Of a stretch of DNA of 8,273 nucleotides, positions 1-8,273 are shown one piece after another. This stretch comes from a bacterium. GTDB taxonomy: Bacteria; CAIWAD01. Under the pieces are notes generated by a model, which was given only the letters and a program-made list of their open reading frames with translations, did no database searches and was not told where the DNA came from. Every line of letters starts with the position of its first letter. Position 1 is the first letter of the stretch. The DNA is taken from the NCBI GenBank assembly GCA_030429345.1, contig JAUIFJ010000063.1:1-8273 (forward strand), given 5' to 3'. The position numbers and the translations under genes are program-made.

Positions 1-412
1 GTGCAAACCTGCAGTCCGTACCATGAAGGGAATCTTGCAGCGTCGTCATGTTAACCCCCTCGGGGGAGCAAGGGAGAGCCGAGAAGTTGGTGCACTTCGA
101 AGGCCAAGGAAGAGGCGAAGAATCTGGAAACGCAGCCTCGAAGAACTCCCCGGCGTATGGAGAGTGGAATGCAGGGACAGTCGTCAGGGAAACAGGAGAG
201 ATCTCGTCGGGTCGCGGATCACACGCCGCGTAAGAAGTGGTATAAGTCCATTTGACGAAATCCACGACGACGCCCGGCGAGAAGTCGGAGGGGGTCATAG
301 TACCGGTGACGCGTAAGACAACACAACTTGCGCCAGGGAAGGACCCCTGCTTCAGCAATGGCCAGCGGGAAGGAACGTGACGGTGCATGCTCCCAGGAGC
401 CAACAACACCCG
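1..412 (+). other. Decayed group II intron / leader of intron reverse transcriptase
   Basis: No intact gene is visible here. Short open stretches in different frames resemble the low-complexity N-terminal or upstream region often found before group II intron reverse transcriptases. The clearest is the peptide EKSEGVIVPV at about 280-309, which resembles a KSxGVIVP stretch I recall from such proteins. Stops and frame changes separate these pieces: TGA at 253-255 closes nothing coherent, and the peptide containing EKSEGVIVPV stops near 380. Together with the better preserved segment immediately downstream (413-538), the simplest reading is a degraded 5' part of a group II intron. I cannot identify the intron's 5' boundary or its RNA domains by eye, and the remnant may begin before the window. 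Confidence 0.4.
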
Positions 413-538
413 TTTGAAAAGTCACGAAACCTCCAGCGCAGCCTCTACCGTGCGGCCAAAAGGAGTGGAACCCGGCGGTTCCATGCCCTGCTGGACCGCC
501 TCGTTCGGCCCGATGTGTTCTGGCGGGCCTGGGTGGAA
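413..538 (+). pseudogene. Group II intron reverse transcriptase/maturase, N-terminal fragment
   Basis: This stretch lies in the open frame 377-577. It encodes about 42 residues that match, from memory, the conserved N-terminal block of group II intron reverse transcriptase/maturases: a LQRxLYRAAK segment, then RRFHALLDR, then RPDVFWRAW. In intact proteins this is followed by the first RT motifs, including a GVDG stretch. Here the similarity breaks off after WRAWVE, and the frame ends about 13 codons later. No finger/palm motifs, YADD box, maturase or endonuclease domain exists downstream, so no active enzyme can be made. The break is only about 35 bases before the left core of the first attC-like repeat. 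The fragment may therefore sit inside, and have been truncated within, an older gene cassette. The family call is recollection-based; truncation is seen directly. Confidence 0.6.
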
Positions 539-571: not shown

Positions 572-697
572 GTCTGACCCTACAAGCGGATGCCTCGCCT
601 TGTCACGGCCTTTGCCTGGAATTGGCGCCGCTGCGCGTCGCGGTGGCTCGGGCAAAGCCCGCGTCAAGCCGGTCACAGCTTATGCAGAACGTTAGCT
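572..697 (+). other. attC-like integron recombination site 1
   Basis: This site is the left copy of a repeat whose body (586-691) matches 1587-1692 at about 97 of 106 positions with no gaps. The right end carries the core GTTAGCT (691-697), one base from the attC consensus GTTRRRY, with cleavage expected between 691 and 692. The left core may be GTCTGAC (572-578), one base from RYYYAAC. The interior has inverted complementarity, for example CCTTTGCC near 609-617 against GGGCAAAG near 650-657. This allows the long imperfect stem that the integrase recognises on the bottom strand. The inner left arm is poorer here than in copy 2. The core at 691 is the exact reverse complement of copy 2's left core, as expected for a cassette boundary. 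Confidence 0.7.
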
Positions 698-787
698 TTA
701 CCTGAATCCACTGTTAGACAATCCCGAACGATTCGCGGAAACTGATTTTGCCTGGCTCTGGGCTATTCATCATGCTTTAGAAAACGA

Positions 788-839
788 TTGACTTACTCAG
801 TGCATTCATGCATTCTTACATGTAAGATCGGGAGGTGCC
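788..839 (+). promoter_or_regulatory. Toxin-antitoxin promoter with two operator-like palindromes and RBS
   Basis: TTGACT (788-793) is a good -35 box. At 17-bp spacing CATTCT (811-816) is a mediocre -10 box. Two perfect palindromes overlap or follow it: TGCAT-TC-ATGCA (801-812) and CTTACATGTAAG (815-826). They lie between the -35 element and the ribosome binding site GGGAGG (830-835), which sits 4 bases before the antitoxin ATG. AbrB/MazE-type antitoxins usually autorepress their own operon, so these are the natural candidate operators. The sequence elements are seen directly; the regulation is inferred. Confidence 0.55.
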
Positions 840-1103
840 ATGAGTAGGTTATCGACAACCAAGCTTTCGTCCAAGGGTCAAGTTGTGATCCCCGAAGAGA
901 TTCGCCTGGAGCTGGGGCTGGAGCCAGGAGAACGCTTTCTTGTTGTTGCTGAGAATGATGTTGTTGTTTTGAAGAAACTTGCGCTTCCATCCGCCAAAGA
1001 GTTTCGGTCTTTGGTGAAGAGGGCACGCGATCAGGCAAAAGCCGTAGGTCTAACGGAATCTGACATCGAAGCAGCTCTAAAGGCTCACCGCGGCAAGTCA
1101 TGA
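840..1103 (+). CDS. AbrB/MazE-family antitoxin
   Basis: This is an 87-residue protein. Its first 45 or so residues form a SpoVT-AbrB (MazE-like) swapped-hairpin DNA-binding domain, recognisable by STTKLSSKGQVVIPEEIR, then LGLEPGERF and a VVVLKK strand. The C-terminal part (about 50-87) is charged and helical, as expected for the segment that wraps and blocks a partner toxin. The ATG is well placed after GGGAGG. The gene overlaps the PIN toxin start by ATGA, which implies translational coupling and an operon. It should neutralise the toxin and repress the shared promoter through the palindromes upstream. It lies inside an integron cassette. Family assignment is firm; the specific antitoxin role rests on the toxin neighbour. 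Confidence 0.88.
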   Translation: MSRLSTTKLSSKGQVVIPEEIRLELGLEPGERFLVVAENDVVVLKKLALPSAKEFRSLVKRARDQAKAVGLTESDIEAALKAHRGKS

Positions 1104-1507
1104 AGTTCGTGCTTGATACAAACGTTCTGATGTCTGGGATCTTCTTCAGAGGGAAACCTGGACAAATCCTCGATTGGTGGTTGGAAGGAAATGCGACACT
1201 GCTAGTCAGTGATGAAATCCTTCAAGAGTATGAGTCAGTTTTCATGCGCCTTTCTGCCAAGTACCCAGCTCTTGAGGCAAAACGTTTACTGAACTCTGTT
1301 GCCGTGCATGCATCTGTGATACATGCCAAACAGTTGCCCGTTCAGGTAACTGATGACCCGGATGATGAGAAATTCGTTGCTTGTGCCTTACAAGGGCGTG
1401 CGCATGTGATTGTGAGTGGTGACAAGCATTTGCTTAGCGTAAATGGGTGGGAAGGGATTGAAATTCTTAATCCATCGACGTTTCATGCGCGCTTTCTCAC
1501 GAACTGA
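1100..1507 (+). CDS. PIN-domain toxin (putative VapC-like endoribonuclease)
   Basis: This 135-residue protein spans a whole single PIN domain of the family annotated as 'putative toxin-antitoxin system toxin component, PIN family' (COG1569). PIN toxins are magnesium-dependent RNases that cleave tRNA, rRNA or mRNA. The acidic residues expected in the active site are present: D6 in VLDTN, E43 in the ILQEYE helix, D89 in the PDDEKF motif, and D108 in VSGDKHLL. The toxin therefore looks intact. The start overlaps the antitoxin stop by ATGA. A stretch of about 60 bases without a gene separates its stop from the attC-like site that closes the cassette. The RNA target cannot be predicted from the sequence. 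Confidence 0.88.
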   Translation: MKFVLDTNVLMSGIFFRGKPGQILDWWLEGNATLLVSDEILQEYESVFMRLSAKYPALEAKRLLNSVAVHASVIHAKQLPVQVTDDPDDEKFVACALQGRAHVIVSGDKHLLSVNGWEGIEILNPSTFHARFLTN

Positions 1508-1568
1508 CATGAAACTGGCCCCTGAAGTGGAACCGGCAGTTGCGAGCGGCGACCATCTTGGCAGGAAT

Positions 1569-1698
1569 AGCTAACTACAGCATTAAGCGGATGCCTCGCC
1601 TTGTCACGGCCTTTGCCTGGAAAGGGTGCCGCTGCGCGTCGCGACGGCCGGGGCAAAGCCCGCGCCAAGCCGGTCACAGCTTATGCTGAACGCTCGTG
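1569..1698 (+). other. attC-like integron recombination site 2
   Basis: This right-hand copy closes the toxin-antitoxin cassette. The left core is AGCTAAC (1569-1575). The inner arms CAGCATTAAGC (about 1578-1588) and GCTTATGCTG (1680-1689) are complementary except for one extra T in the left arm. That matches the known asymmetry of attC stems, where extrahelical bases in the left arm set strand choice. The central region contains a second stem (CTTTGCC against GGCAAAG) and a GC-rich loop near 1631-1645. The right core is degenerate: G at 1692 is followed by CTCGTG rather than TTRRRY. This site may therefore mark the end of the array or be inactive on that side. Confidence 0.68.
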
Positions 1699-3386: not shown

Positions 3387-4145
3387 ATGACACGAAGCAG
3401 CGCCACTCTTTCCCTTCTTCAGGTGAGAAAATCCTTCGATGAGCATCCTGTCATACGAGATGTAGACCTGGACGTGCCCCCTGGCACCACCCTGGCACTG
3501 ATCGGACCGAGCGGCTGCGGCAAGTCGACCTTGCTGCGCCTGATGAACGGGCTGCTGCAACCGGACAGGGGCAAGGTCCAAGTCAAAGGCGAGCGTCTTG
3601 TCGCACAGAACCTGCTCAGCCTGCGTCGGCGCATGGGCTACGTAATCCAGGAAGGCGGCCTCTTCCCCCATCTGGATGCGCGACAGAACATCACCCTGAT
3701 GGCCGACCACCTGGCCTGGAAGCCGGAGCGCATCGAATCCCGCCTGCTGGCGCTGCTACAGCTGACCCACCTCGAAACCGACCTGTTGCAACGCTTTCCC
3801 TTTGAGCTTTCCGGCGGCCAGCGGCAGCGCGTCGCGCTGATGCGCGCGCTGATGCTGGACCCGGAAATTCTCCTGCTCGACGAACCGCTGGGAGCGCTCG
3901 ACCCGATCATTCGCTTCGATTTGCAGAAGGAACTCAAGGGAATCTTCCAGGCGCTGGGCAAGACGGTCGTGCTCGTCACACATGATCTTTCCGAGGCAGC
4001 CTATCTGGCCGACGAGGTCTTGTTGTTGCACGAGGGTCGCATCGCGCAACGGGGACACATGAGTGATCTGGTTCACCGGCCCGCTGACGCCTTCGTGGAA
4101 CGCTTCGTCAAGGCGCAGCGCGGCCACGACTGGAGTGCCTTATGA
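3387..4145 (+). CDS. Quaternary amine-type ABC transporter ATP-binding protein
   Basis: This 252-residue cytoplasmic ATPase would power the fused binding protein/permease encoded next. All motifs are intact: Walker A GPSGCGKST (40-48), Q-loop Q88 in VIQEGG, signature LSGGQ (141-145), Walker B ILLLDEP (161-167), D-loop GALD (169-172) and switch histidine H199. The VIQEGGLFPH Q-loop and the partner gene point to the OpuA/OsmV/ProV group that imports glycine betaine, choline and similar osmolytes. ProV and OpuAA carry C-terminal CBS domains that sense ionic strength. This protein ends right after the ATPase core, so that sensor is absent. The stop overlaps the next start by ATGA, implying coupling. 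The ATG at 3387 has no good ribosome binding site, so the start is the least certain point. Substrate is inferred from family only. Confidence 0.88.
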   Translation: MTRSSATLSLLQVRKSFDEHPVIRDVDLDVPPGTTLALIGPSGCGKSTLLRLMNGLLQPDRGKVQVKGERLVAQNLLSLRRRMGYVIQEGGLFPHLDARQNITLMADHLAWKPERIESRLLALLQLTHLETDLLQRFPFELSGGQRQRVALMRALMLDPEILLLDEPLGALDPIIRFDLQKELKGIFQALGKTVVLVTHDLSEAAYLADEVLLLHEGRIAQRGHMSDLVHRPADAFVERFVKAQRGHDWSAL

Positions 4146-5611
4146 TGCCCCTACTGTTTCCAGCCCTGCTCCTGCTACTCCTGGCTGGTTCCGCAGCGCA
4201 AGGGGAGATCCGCGTCGGCTCGAAGAAGTTCACCGAGTCCGTGATCCTAGGCGAGATCGCCTCAGGGCTGCTGCAGGATGACGGCGCATCCGTAATACAC
4301 CAGCGGGAGTTGGGCGGTACAAGGATCCTCTGGAATGCCCTGAAAGCCGGGGAACTGGACCTCTACCCAGACTACACCGGCACTCTGCGTCACGAAATCC
4401 TGGCCGGCGACGCCCCGGACGAGGGCCTGGAGGGCCTGCGCAAGGCGCTTGCGCCCCACGGCATCGGGATCACCGCACCCCTGGGGTTCAACAACAGCTA
4501 TGCCCTCGGCATGCTCAAGGCGCGTGCTGCCGAGCTTGGTATCTCGCAGACATCGGACCTGGCCCGGCATCCGGACCTGTTGCTCGGCTGCAGCAGCGAA
4601 TTCCTCAAGCGCGCCGACGGTTGGCCCGGGCTGCAGCAGCTCTACGGCCTGCCGCATCAGCCTCGCGGCATGGATCACGACCTGGCCTATCGCGGATTGG
4701 CCTCCGGCAGCCTGGACCTGACCCTGTTGTATACCACCGACGCCGAGATCCGCTACTACGATCTTGCGGTGCTGAAAGACGACCGGGAGTATTTCCCGCG
4801 CTACGAATCGGTCATCGTATACCGTCTGGATCTGCCCGAATCCAGGCTCGAAACCCTGCGGAGGCTGGAAGGCCGGATCAATGCGACACGCATGATCGGC
4901 ATGAACGCCGCGGTAAAGCTGGAAGGGCTAAGCGAGGCTGAAACGGCAGCGGAATTCCTCTGGGAGCGTTTCGCCATCGACACAGTCTTGAGTCAACAGG
5001 GATTGGCTTCCAGGCTTCTGCAGCGCACTCTGGAACACCTCTTCCTGGTAGCGCTTTCGCTCGGCATGGCCATCGCACTCGCCCTGCCCCTGGGGATCGT
5101 TGCCGTGAAACACGCCCGCCTTGGACAAGTCGTGCTGGCGATCACTGGCGTGATGCAGACGATCCCCTCCCTGGCCCTGCTGGTGGTGATGATTCCCCTG
5201 CTCGGCATCGGTGCAGCGCCGGCGATCGCGGCGCTGTTCCTCTACAGCCTTCTGCCCATCGTGCGCAATACACACGCCGGTCTGGCCGGCGTGCCGGCAA
5301 GTCTGCGGGAATCGGCCCAGGCCATGGGCCTGCCGCCCCCTGCCTGCCTGAAGCGCATCGAGCTGCCGCTGGCCTTGCCGAGTATTCTCGCCGGCATCAA
5401 GACCGCTGCCGTGATCAACATCGGCACCGCGACCCTGGGCGCCCTTGTCGGCGCGGGCGGCTACGGCCAGGCGATCCTCACCGGCATTCGCCTCGACAAC
5501 ACGGCCCTGATCCTCGAAGGCGCCCTGCCCGCCGCGGCCCTGGCCCTGGCGGCCCAGTGGCTGCTGGAGAAAGGCGAGAAGCACTGGGTGTCCCGGGGAG
5601 TGCGACAGTAG
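4142..5611 (+). CDS. Fused quaternary-amine binding protein/ABC permease
   Basis: This 489-residue two-domain membrane protein starts with a hydrophobic leader (1-19) ending in AGSAAQG, which is either a cleaved signal or an anchor. A periplasmic substrate-binding domain follows at about 22-285. It is of the OpuAC/OsmF type, with the family hallmarks GSKKFTES (26-33), ELGGTR (56-61) and DLYPDYTGT (73-81). From about 295 to 480 comes a BPD-type permease with roughly five or six membrane segments. It has QTIPSLALL (339-347) and an EAA-type ATPase coupling loop, ESAQAMGL...RIELPLALPSI (390-415). With the ATPase it would form a complete importer. Best-known fusions such as OpuABC and EgtUB have the permease first and binding domain second; here the order is reversed. 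A second ATG lies at 4145, but the ATGA overlap favours 4142. Glycine betaine, choline or proline betaine are likely ligands; the exact one is unknown. Confidence 0.87.
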   Translation: MMPLLFPALLLLLLAGSAAQGEIRVGSKKFTESVILGEIASGLLQDDGASVIHQRELGGTRILWNALKAGELDLYPDYTGTLRHEILAGDAPDEGLEGLRKALAPHGIGITAPLGFNNSYALGMLKARAAELGISQTSDLARHPDLLLGCSSEFLKRADGWPGLQQLYGLPHQPRGMDHDLAYRGLASGSLDLTLLYTTDAEIRYYDLAVLKDDREYFPRYESVIVYRLDLPESRLETLRRLEGRINATRMIGMNAAVKLEGLSEAETAAEFLWERFAIDTVLSQQGLASRLLQRTLEHLFLVALSLGMAIALALPLGIVAVKHARLGQVVLAITGVMQTIPSLALLVVMIPLLGIGAAPAIAALFLYSLLPIVRNTHAGLAGVPASLRESAQAMGLPPPACLKRIELPLALPSILAGIKTAAVINIGTATLGALVGAGGYGQAILTGIRLDNTALILEGALPAAALALAAQWLLEKGEKHWVSRGVRQ

Positions 5612-5848
5612 CAAGGAAGTAGATCGTCAGATTGTAGTACGAGCCCCGGGAGTCGACTTCATTCTGTCCGGGCGGGTCCTGGTCGCCAATCGATCGATCG
5701 CCTGATCCTCGCCCTGGCATGCCCCGTCCCCGGGAAATCACGACCGGCAGGAAAGCGCTTGCGAAAGGACCCTGAGGCACTAAGTTGCTGTAAGGCAACC
5801 TGCAGATGCAGTGTGCCTGCTGCAGCACACACTGGTCGTGGAGTCCCA
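5612..5848. other. Intergenic region with two small stem-loops before the DUF1569 gene
   Basis: Two short inverted repeats lie just upstream of the next gene: GTTGC-6-GCAAC (5784-5799) and GTGTGC-8-GCACAC (5811-5830). Neither is followed by a T-run, so they do not look like rho-independent terminators. The second ends about nine bases before the GGAG (5839-5842) that serves as ribosome binding site, so it could modulate initiation. I see no gene and no convincing promoter in the remainder. Confidence 0.3.
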
Positions 5849-6301
5849 ATGATATCCGCATTCAACCGAGACGATGTCGACAGCCTCAAGGCACGCATCC
5901 ACCAGCTGACCACAGCAACACGCCCGCTGTGGGGCAAGATGAACTCCTCCCGGATGCTGGCCCATTGCAATGTGACCTACGAGCTGGTTTACGACCCGCC
6001 TGCCAAGAGGCCCAACGCGGTGCTGCGGTTCCTGCTGAAGGTCTTCGTCAAGCCGGCGGTTGTCAACGAGAAGCCCTACAAGCGCAGCCTGCGTACGGCG
6101 CCCTACTTCGTCATCAGCGACGAGCGGGAATTCGACAAGGAGCAGGCGCGACTGCTGGCCTACATGGATCGGACACTGGCACTGGGCGCGGCGTCCTTCG
6201 AGGGCAGGGAGTCCTATTCCTTCGGGGCCCTGACCGCGCAGGAGTGGAGCAACATGTTCACCAAGCACCTCGAGCACCACCTTGCGCAGTTCGGAGTCTA
6301 G
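5849..6301 (+). CDS. DUF1569 domain protein (DinB/YfiT-like fold)
   Basis: This 150-residue cytoplasmic protein matches DUF1569 almost end to end. It has RPLWGKMNSSRMLAHC near the N-terminus, VVNEKPYKRS (71-80), RTAPYFVISDEREF (82-95) and a C-terminal TKHLEHHLAQFGV. DUF1569 belongs to the DinB/YfiT four-helix-bundle superfamily, which usually binds a metal through three histidines. Plausible ligands here are H39 and the H140/H144 pair. Some superfamily members are thiol-dependent transferases, but DUF1569 itself has no established reaction. The open frame reaches back to 5759, but I chose ATG 5849. The family similarity begins there, and GGAG lies 6 bases upstream. The gene appears to stand alone between the transporter and the VOC genes. 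Confidence 0.85.
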   Translation: MISAFNRDDVDSLKARIHQLTTATRPLWGKMNSSRMLAHCNVTYELVYDPPAKRPNAVLRFLLKVFVKPAVVNEKPYKRSLRTAPYFVISDEREFDKEQARLLAYMDRTLALGAASFEGRESYSFGALTAQEWSNMFTKHLEHHLAQFGV

Positions 6302-6340
6302 CCGGACGGATAGTGCCTCTTCCGAGAAAGTCCTGTGAGA

Positions 6341-6466
6341 ATGAACACGTTAGGCATCATTGGAAGCCTGACCTATCGGATCGCCCGTTTGATCCCGCTG
6401 TTGCTGGGACTGCCCCCTTGTCCTGGGGATTCACAACGCGTCCGAAAGAGGGACTTCGCAGACTGA
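6341..6466 (+). CDS. Possible 41-residue hydrophobic peptide
   Basis: A short ATG frame encodes a peptide starting MNTLGIIGSLTYRIARLIPL, then a proline/leucine stretch and a basic tail. It is preceded by TGTGAGA, a poor ribosome binding site. The hydrophobic segment around residues 4-25 could be a membrane helix. No family is recognised. It may equally be chance or the 5' stump of a lost gene in the 223-base gap between the DUF1569 gene and the VOC leader. Confidence 0.18.
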   Translation: MNTLGIIGSLTYRIARLIPLLLGLPPCPGDSQRVRKRDFAD

Positions 6467-6524
6467 GCGCAGCAACAAGCCTTGTGTCACATTGAACGAT
6501 ATGGATTGATCCCGGAGGGGCCCC

Positions 6525-7127
6525 ATGAGCCGTCATACGACCTGGACGAACTTCCTGATCGCCTGTATCACCCTCTGCACGCTCACGCTTTCAGGAAGCA
6601 CGACGGCAGTGGACTAGGCCGCTGGCGCGAGAGTGCACTACCTGGAAATCGTCACTCCGGACTTGGCCGTCCACTGTGCAATCCTGGAAGAGCTCCATGG
6701 CCTGGCCTTCGGCGACCCGGTCGCCGACCTGGGAAATGCCCGTGTTGCGAGGGCGGCGGACGGCAGCCTGATCGGCGTGCGCGCTCCACTTGCCGAGCAC
6801 GAAGCTCCGATCGTCCGGACCTGCCTGGAAACGGACGACATCAGATCTGCCGTCAAGCGGGCCGAGGCCGCCGGCGCCCTGATCGCCTACCCGCCGACGA
6901 AGCAGGGGGACACGGGCACCGGGGTGATCTACATCCTCGGAGGCGTACAGATCGGCCTGTGGCAGAAGTACACAACCCTTGACCATGTAGGGAAATCCCA
7001 TGCACGATCTCTTCACACCCGGCGTCGGCCGCGTGAACAGCGCGGACATTGCCCTGCCGGATCACAAGCGAGCCGTCCGCTTCTACTCCCGCGTTCTCCG
7101 CACGGGAAGGACTCCATGTTGGCGTGA
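6525..7127 (+). pseudogene. VOC-family protein with signal peptide, interrupted by in-frame TAG
   Basis: ATG 6525 follows a strong GGAGGGG (6514-6520) and encodes a 30-residue export leader with hydrophobic core FLIACITLCTLTL, ending in TTAVD. TAG (6615-6617) then stops the frame. In the same frame the sequence resumes as AAGARVHYLEIVTPD and runs through one VOC (glyoxalase/bleomycin-resistance fold) domain to GLWQ at 6957-6965. In related proteins, as I recall them, a leader precedes just such a domain and the protein ends near GLWQ. Here the frame continues to 7127, overlapping the next gene by 128 bases with no sensible protein, so the natural stop also looks lost. A GTG at 6633 could restart translation and yield a leaderless protein of up to 164 residues, but it lacks a good ribosome binding site. 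A nonsense-mutated gene is the likeliest reading. Confidence 0.65.
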
Positions 7128-7809
7128 CGACCTGATGAACAGCCAAGGCATGCCGGTCATCGGCGTAGGTGCGAGATCGGCCGAAATCGAGGCCCTTCCT
7201 CTTCAATGGATGCCACACATCCAGGTGCAGGACGTGGGTGCCGCCGTATTACGCGCATTGAAGTTGGGCGGTTCGGAACTGCTGCACGGCAGAGACAAGA
7301 ACGGCTACAGCCAGTGGGCCGTGTTGCTGGATCCGAATGGCGCGGCTTTCGGTCTGATTCCGGTCGTGTCCAGGGAGGAACTGCCACAAGCCGAAACCGC
7401 GCCAGCAGGAGAAAGCGCGATCCAGCCCGGGCACATTGCCTGGCTGGACCTGACGGTTCCGGCCGCCGTGGCGATACGCGATTTCTACAGCCAGGTCATC
7501 GGCTGGACGGCGCAGGAAGTCGAGATGCGGGACTCGGGCGAGCACTACGCCGATTTCAACCTGCTCGGCGCGGATGGATCACCGGCAGCCGGCATCTGTC
7601 ACGCGCGCGGCATGAACAAGGATCTGCCGCCTGTCTGGCTGCTCTATCTTCCCGTGGGCGACCTGACCGAGAGTCTACGCCGCGTACGAACGGAAGGCGA
7701 TACCGTTCTCCGGGAAGCCAAGCAGTCGAGCGGCGAGATCGCTTTCGCCGTCATTCGTGATCCAGCCGGCGCATGCCTGGCGCTGATGCCCGGTCAGCAG
7801 TCGGATTGA
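7000..7809 (+). CDS. Two-domain VOC-family (glyoxalase/bleomycin resistance-like) protein
   Basis: This 269-residue protein, apparently cytoplasmic, contains two VOC domains. Domain 1 (about 10-122) runs from [19 protein letters not shown] to [15 protein letters not shown]. Domain 2 (about 144-264) runs from [11 protein letters not shown] through DFYSQVIGW to [15 protein letters not shown]. The FYxxVxGW and DPxGAxxxL signatures typify this fold. Domain 1's first half is more divergent, with [14 protein letters not shown] replacing the usual FYxxVLGW. Such two-domain VOC proteins are often annotated as hydroxylases or glyoxalases with no proven substrate, so I do not assign a reaction. ATG 7000 follows AGGGA at 6989-6993. 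It begins inside the run-on end of the damaged VOC gene, and the two may once have formed an operon. Confidence 0.8.
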
Positions 7810-7934: not shown

Positions 7935-7942
7935 GTTTGGAA

Positions 7943-8273
7943 GCCAAGGACGGTGCCAAGGACGGTGCCAAGGACGGTGCCAGGGACCGTGCCAAGGACG
8001 GTGCCAGGGACGGTGCCAGGCACGGTGCCAGGCACGGTGCCAGGGACCGTGCCAAGGACCGTGCCAAGGACGGTGCCAAGGACGGTACCAGGGACGGTGC
8101 CAGGGACAGTGCCAAGGACGGTGCCAGGGACGGTGCCAAGGACGGTGCCAAGGACGGTGCCAGGGACGGTGCCAAGGTCGGTACCAGGGACGGTGCCAGG
8201 GACGGTGCCAGGGACGGTACCAGGGACAGCGCCAAGGTCGGTACCAGGGACGGTGCCAGGGACGGTGCCAGGG
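7943..8273. repeat. 12-bp minisatellite, 27 full units plus 7 bases, running off the window
   Basis: The unit is GCCARGGACGGT, where the R position is A in 12 units and G in 15. Every full unit is exactly 12 bases with no indels. Variants include GGACCGT, GGCACGGT, GGACAGT, GGTCGGT and an A in place of the first G. Near the right edge a 60-bp higher-order period appears: 8171-8213 equals 8231-8273 exactly. Because 12 is divisible by 3, several frames stay open: repeated AKDG or ARDG on the plus strand, and LAPS or HRPW on the minus strand. Openness is therefore weak evidence of coding. Units 7 and 8 create the inverted pair GGCAC-G-GTGCC, so parts can fold. The array's right end lies outside the window. 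Confidence 0.93.

Follow-up and report, generated by a model that had tools for sequence, protein, structure and literature searches.

The DNA considered here (the window, 8273 bases) is the complete contig C85 of a bacterial genome of 4.24 Mb in 92 contigs. Towards its left end, a two-gene toxin–antitoxin (TA) operon lies between two copies of a palindromic repeat, in the following arrangement.

1–545, + strand: 5′ part of a group II intron, truncated; its reverse transcriptase (RT) frame (377–545) ends inside the RT/maturase N-terminus
572–697, + strand: attC1, the left boundary, assigned from its fold and as a 94% copy of the attC on contig C58; GTCTGAC at the R″ position (572–578, degenerate), R′ GTTAGCT (691–697, intact)
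692–1692, + strand: proposed inserted cassette in its linear form, 1001 bp, from the TT of the left core to the G of the right core position, delimited by the repeat offset and the G/TT rule
788–816, + strand: promoter-like TTGACT-N17-CATTCT, with the layout of TTGACA-N17-CATAAT in the homologue L111
814–827, + strand: palindromic candidate operator TCTTACATGTAAGA, a perfect inverted repeat
840–1103, + strand: antitoxin of the AbrB/MazE fold, 87 aa (PF04014, 35.5 bits, cut-off 24.7; TIGR01439, 42.1 bits, cut-off 28.3)
1100–1507, + strand: toxin, a PIN-domain RNase, 135 aa (PF13470, 79.6 bits; TIGR00305, PIN-family TA toxin, 56.7 bits, cut-off 29.15)
1569–1698, + strand: attC2, the right boundary, assigned from covariance model R1 and its fold; R″ AGCTAAC (1569–1575), GCTCGTG at the R′ position (1692–1698, core lost)

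By its protein families, the operon belongs to the type II TA systems that pair an AbrB-fold antitoxin with a PIN toxin: both families are present in adjacent genes, the antitoxin gene coming first and overlapping the toxin gene by four bases. D6, E43, D89 and D108 of the toxin are acidic residues among those that would be available for an active site. Relatives of the PIN protein occur in 32 of the 290 genomes searched, this one included, and in eight fetched loci besides the window an antitoxin gene lies beside the PIN gene. Gene order, the four-base overlap and a palindromic operator before the antitoxin gene are common to operons of this kind (TIGR01439 with TIGR00305). By contrast with the other close AbrB and PIN operons, the fetched flanks of which are without attC, that in the window is packaged as a cassette. 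A further, related AbrB-like and PIN pair in another genome (L144:636–1305, G035:C206) lies 1.2 kb before a strong attC (2548–2623, 41.9 bits); as a second integron-borne copy it was rejected, another ORF being present between the PIN relative and the attC.

The promoter-like site, which is not called by a strict consensus scan, is overlapped by the palindrome TCTTACATGTAAGA, located 12 bases before the antitoxin start. The motif TCTTAYNNRTAAGA is found just before the antitoxin gene in six other operons, the closest to that in the window (L111, L112, L113, L114, L115 and L117), and nowhere else in the 79 kb of those loci or in 873 kb of background. It is thus a candidate operator for this AbrB and PIN TA family, seven related operons including that in the window. 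Since the conserved palindrome overlaps the promoter-like site, the cassette seems to bring its own autoregulated promoter, by analogy with the Vibrio TA cassettes, for which such a promoter has been described (PMC11023631).

The repeats that flank the operon (584–691 and 1585–1692) are 108 nucleotides each, 92% identical and 1001 bases apart, and both are palindromic and internally complementary. The heptamer GTTAGCT at 691 and its exact reverse complement AGCTAAC at 1569 each occur only once in the window. The initial annotation, in proposing that near-identical, self-complementary repeats with complementary cores enclose the operon, is thus borne out in each of these respects. It had further recognised that the same repeat scattered genome-wide beside unrelated genes would speak against a cassette; the 4.24-Mb genome contains only three copies, two in the window and one on contig C58 (94% identical to the left window copy over 584–692), together with one decayed relic (C60:41976), and the repeat is for this reason not a dispersed one. 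The relic, at L014:3971–4070 (G000:C60:41970–42069), appears on our own reading to lie between nuclease-like and protease-like ORFs. The repeat is absent from the sister genomes, and the attC family to which it belongs is private to this genome among the 60 searched.

The copy on C58, a contig separate from the window, lies beside a true integron integrase gene; the initial annotation had placed further copies and an intI to the left of the window. The IntI protein (C58:12288–13223) scores 452.5 bits with TIGR02249, for which the cut-off is 265, and each of the three sister genomes in the family also has an intI (51–63%). On C58 the intI gene is followed, after 116 nucleotides, by the core GTTATGT (L013:4344), an ORF of 197 aa with no recognised family and then the repeat, 1.2 kb after intI, with R″ ACATAAC (L013:5426) and R′ GTTAGAA. 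Within these 5.7 kb GTTATGT and ACATAAC occur once each, one the exact reverse complement of the other; the core rule thus also holds for the cassette adjoining intI, and GTTATGT, as the exact partner of the R″ of the first attC, is the core of an attI next to intI. An attI-like TAGTTA site likewise follows intI in the sisters G001 and G002, and no attC was hit in the fetched intI contigs of the sister genomes. The orientation of intI, towards attI and the cassettes, is that of the Treponema integrons (PMC3607928), which are of a different lineage; the IntI described here is 61–64% identical to its best matches in public genomes, many of which are from Synechococcus/Cyanobium and others from metagenome-assembled genomes of several phyla.

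In all three copies of the repeat, including both of those in the window for which the initial annotation had suggested bottom-strand folding, the bottom strand folds better than the top. The difference is clearest for the C58 copy (z −6.53 versus −2.93) and is also evident for the right window copy (−3.10 versus +0.45), the bottom-strand value for the left copy being weak (−1.44 versus +0.56). An attC covariance model, R1, was trained on 37 sites from the integrons of other genomes, with none from this genome, and has 15 pairs, 12 of them with pair-preserving changes on both sides. The model matches the C58 copy over its full length at 31.7 bits (E 5e-6 in 22 kb). For the right window copy the score is 14.7 bits in a filtered search of 22 kb (E 0.057) and 16.4 bits in an unfiltered search of 3 kb (E 0.003). 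In L″, the T that stays unpaired between AGCAT and AAGC coincides with the bulge position of the model. The left copy was not recovered whole, such that the proposed match of both repeats to an attC model stands for the right copy, and for that on C58, and fails for the left copy as a complete site. When this model was run over the whole genome, scores were obtained for only 150 of 7477 candidates and the known C58 site was not recovered, so that the search is uninformative on absence; its hit on C89 was rejected, since to our eye it looks like coding sequence.

With respect to the full set of R″, L″, L′ and R′ elements, each of the window sites is incomplete, and both are relatives of the intact attC on C58. 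In attC1, R′ and L′ are retained, L″ is shortened and the R″ position reads GTCTGAC; in attC2, R″, L″ and L′ are retained and GCTCGTG occupies the R′ position, the point of IntI cleavage. The use of core complementarity as a diagnostic was examined with strong attC candidates from a descriptor scan of integron loci of other organisms. A left core and the next R″ were complementary at 7/7 positions in 16 of 24 neighbouring pairs, compared with 7.5% of pairs drawn from different loci; some of the neighbouring pairs that fail probably skip an undetected attC.

Taken together, the matches to the attC model, the copy beside intI and the low number of repeat copies support the initial interpretation as an integron cassette, and we are highly confident, on the basis of these sequence comparisons, that the TA operon is a gene cassette of the resident chromosomal integron of this genome. 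Integron integrases cleave according to a G/TT rule. IntI from C58 would recognise the folded bottom strand of attC sites of 120–130 nucleotides, exchanging strands at G/TT, and would have inserted a 1-kb circle carrying the AbrB/MazE-type antitoxin gene and the PIN-domain toxin gene. Integration would split the site of the circle, leaving GTTAGCT at 691 and the partner heptamer AGCTAAC at 1569, and it is because both derive from this single site that the distant heptamers would be exact complements. The TA operon would then be expressed from its own promoter and probably repress itself via the TCTTAC/GTAAGA palindrome. If the cassette were lost, stable toxin would be set free, an addiction that may select for retention of this part of the array. 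Since the left site is degenerate in R″/L″ and the right is without the R′ core, excision is probably impaired today, and the cassette would no longer leave efficiently.

The similarity of the repeats (92–94% identity) and their palindromic nature are also features of ordinary dispersed elements of the MITE or REP type, between two of which the TA operon might have come to lie by chance. We regard this explanation as very improbable: it does not accord with the number of copies given above, with the complementarity of the cores across the cassette in both cases where it can be assessed, or with the matches to an independently trained attC model, and it is already contradicted by the location of one copy downstream of intI and attI on C58. 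There is likewise little probability that the cassette is still fully mobile, with attC1 × attC2 recombination excising it at normal rates. The elements that each site retains would favour such recombination, but the loss of the core from attC2 at the very position of IntI cleavage and the degraded R″/L″ arm of attC1 argue against it.

The position of the window relative to C58 is more evenly balanced. No contig joins C85 to C58, the window being a whole contig with its left end inside the group II intron, and the C58 contig ends 111 bases after its attC. The chance is not far short of even that the array in the window is a CALIN, or lies behind an attI without an integrase gene on contig C52, rather than being part of the C58 array; the TA operon would in either case still be an integron cassette. 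The separation of the two contigs and the existence of the site on C52 both favour such an arrangement, and nothing argues directly against it, since the 92–94% likeness of the C58 and C85 attC sites fits one system either way.

The C52 site is itself informative. The end of C58 and that of C52 are identical at 109 of 109 bases from the G of GTTAGAA onwards, and share no bases leftward of it (regions concerned, G000:C52:15762–15981, L158:7763–7982, and C58:13232–14666). To the left of the junction C52 has, in place of an attC, sequence like the C58 attI. Counting from the G, both regions carry TATCCTC at −111 and GAGGATA at −87, and nowhere else in the genome is this two-box pattern present. 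Comparison in register, anchored on the core, is the valid test of these two attI regions, and gives 19/26 matches beside the core (p ≈ 1e-6) and 61/115 overall (p ≈ 3e-9); a local alignment left free scored no better than shuffled sequence. We read the C52 site as probably a second attI without an intI nearby, followed by the cassette that the first platform also carries, with the join falling exactly at G/TT. It is possible that the C52/C58 junction is a misassembly, but this would not create the attI-like left side. The exact G/TT junction common to C58 and C52 provides indirect support for IntI recombination, and points to past action of the resident integrase on another attI in this genome. 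It may tentatively be proposed, with rather less than even confidence, that one integrase serves two platforms, i.e. the intI–attI of C58 and the integrase-less attI of C52 with a cassette also present behind the first, and that the TA cassette, held at an array end by the damage to its attC sites, would anchor the array against deletion.

A stabilising effect on integron arrays is ascribed to TA cassettes. Their presence in integrons is well known (PMC7370490, PMC8618304, PMC11023631), and those of sedentary chromosomal integrons, e.g. the Vibrio superintegron, resemble that described here in comprising a two-gene TA operon with its own promoter, bounded by attC and with a resident intI. By contrast with the Vibrio type, the present cassette has an AbrB and PIN pair, a genome-private attC family and damage to both flanking sites; no PIN-domain or VapC entries were found in the one cassette survey searched (PMC7370490). 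The cassette is thus a clean new example of a well-known kind, from the same system as an intact IntI on another contig, and contributes, from a lineage of which few members have been sampled, an AbrB and PIN pair that has a conserved operator and damage to both of its flanking attC sites. The damaged pair of sites enables the question of whether TA cassettes persist after loss of mobility to be asked.

The intron fragment on the left of the cassette, which ends 26 bases before attC1, has a counterpart in the truncated group II introns found next to attC sites in integrons and CALINs (PMC7923331). Group IIC-attC introns, however, are inserted in the attC bottom strand and normally run opposite to the cassettes (PMC7923331), whereas the fragment in the window is on the + strand and runs in the cassette direction. 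Its RT frame matches ltrA by tblastn against plasmids (55% over 56 aa, E 1e-12), the RT/maturase match stopping at residue 56 for the best hits, tail included, and the intron matches by blastn at 67% over window positions 1–489. This short RT fragment is missed by Pfam and NCBIfam, and a search of the genome for RT/maturase families found none. Rfam gave no match at the gathering score over the window, only sub-threshold ones, i.e. a weak group-II-D1D4-1 (265–344) and one chance match. A 98-bp stretch on C61 is 95% identical to window positions 272–369.

No close OpuAC relative was found in the sister genomes, and there is therefore no empty site for comparison. In favour of the cassette reading, the cassette body has a GC content of 48.5%, against 63% in the genes at 3387–7809. 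Beyond these, at 7937–8273, the window contains an array of a 12-bp unit (GGACGGTGCCAA/G), repeated 20 times or more and cut off by the right end of the contig.
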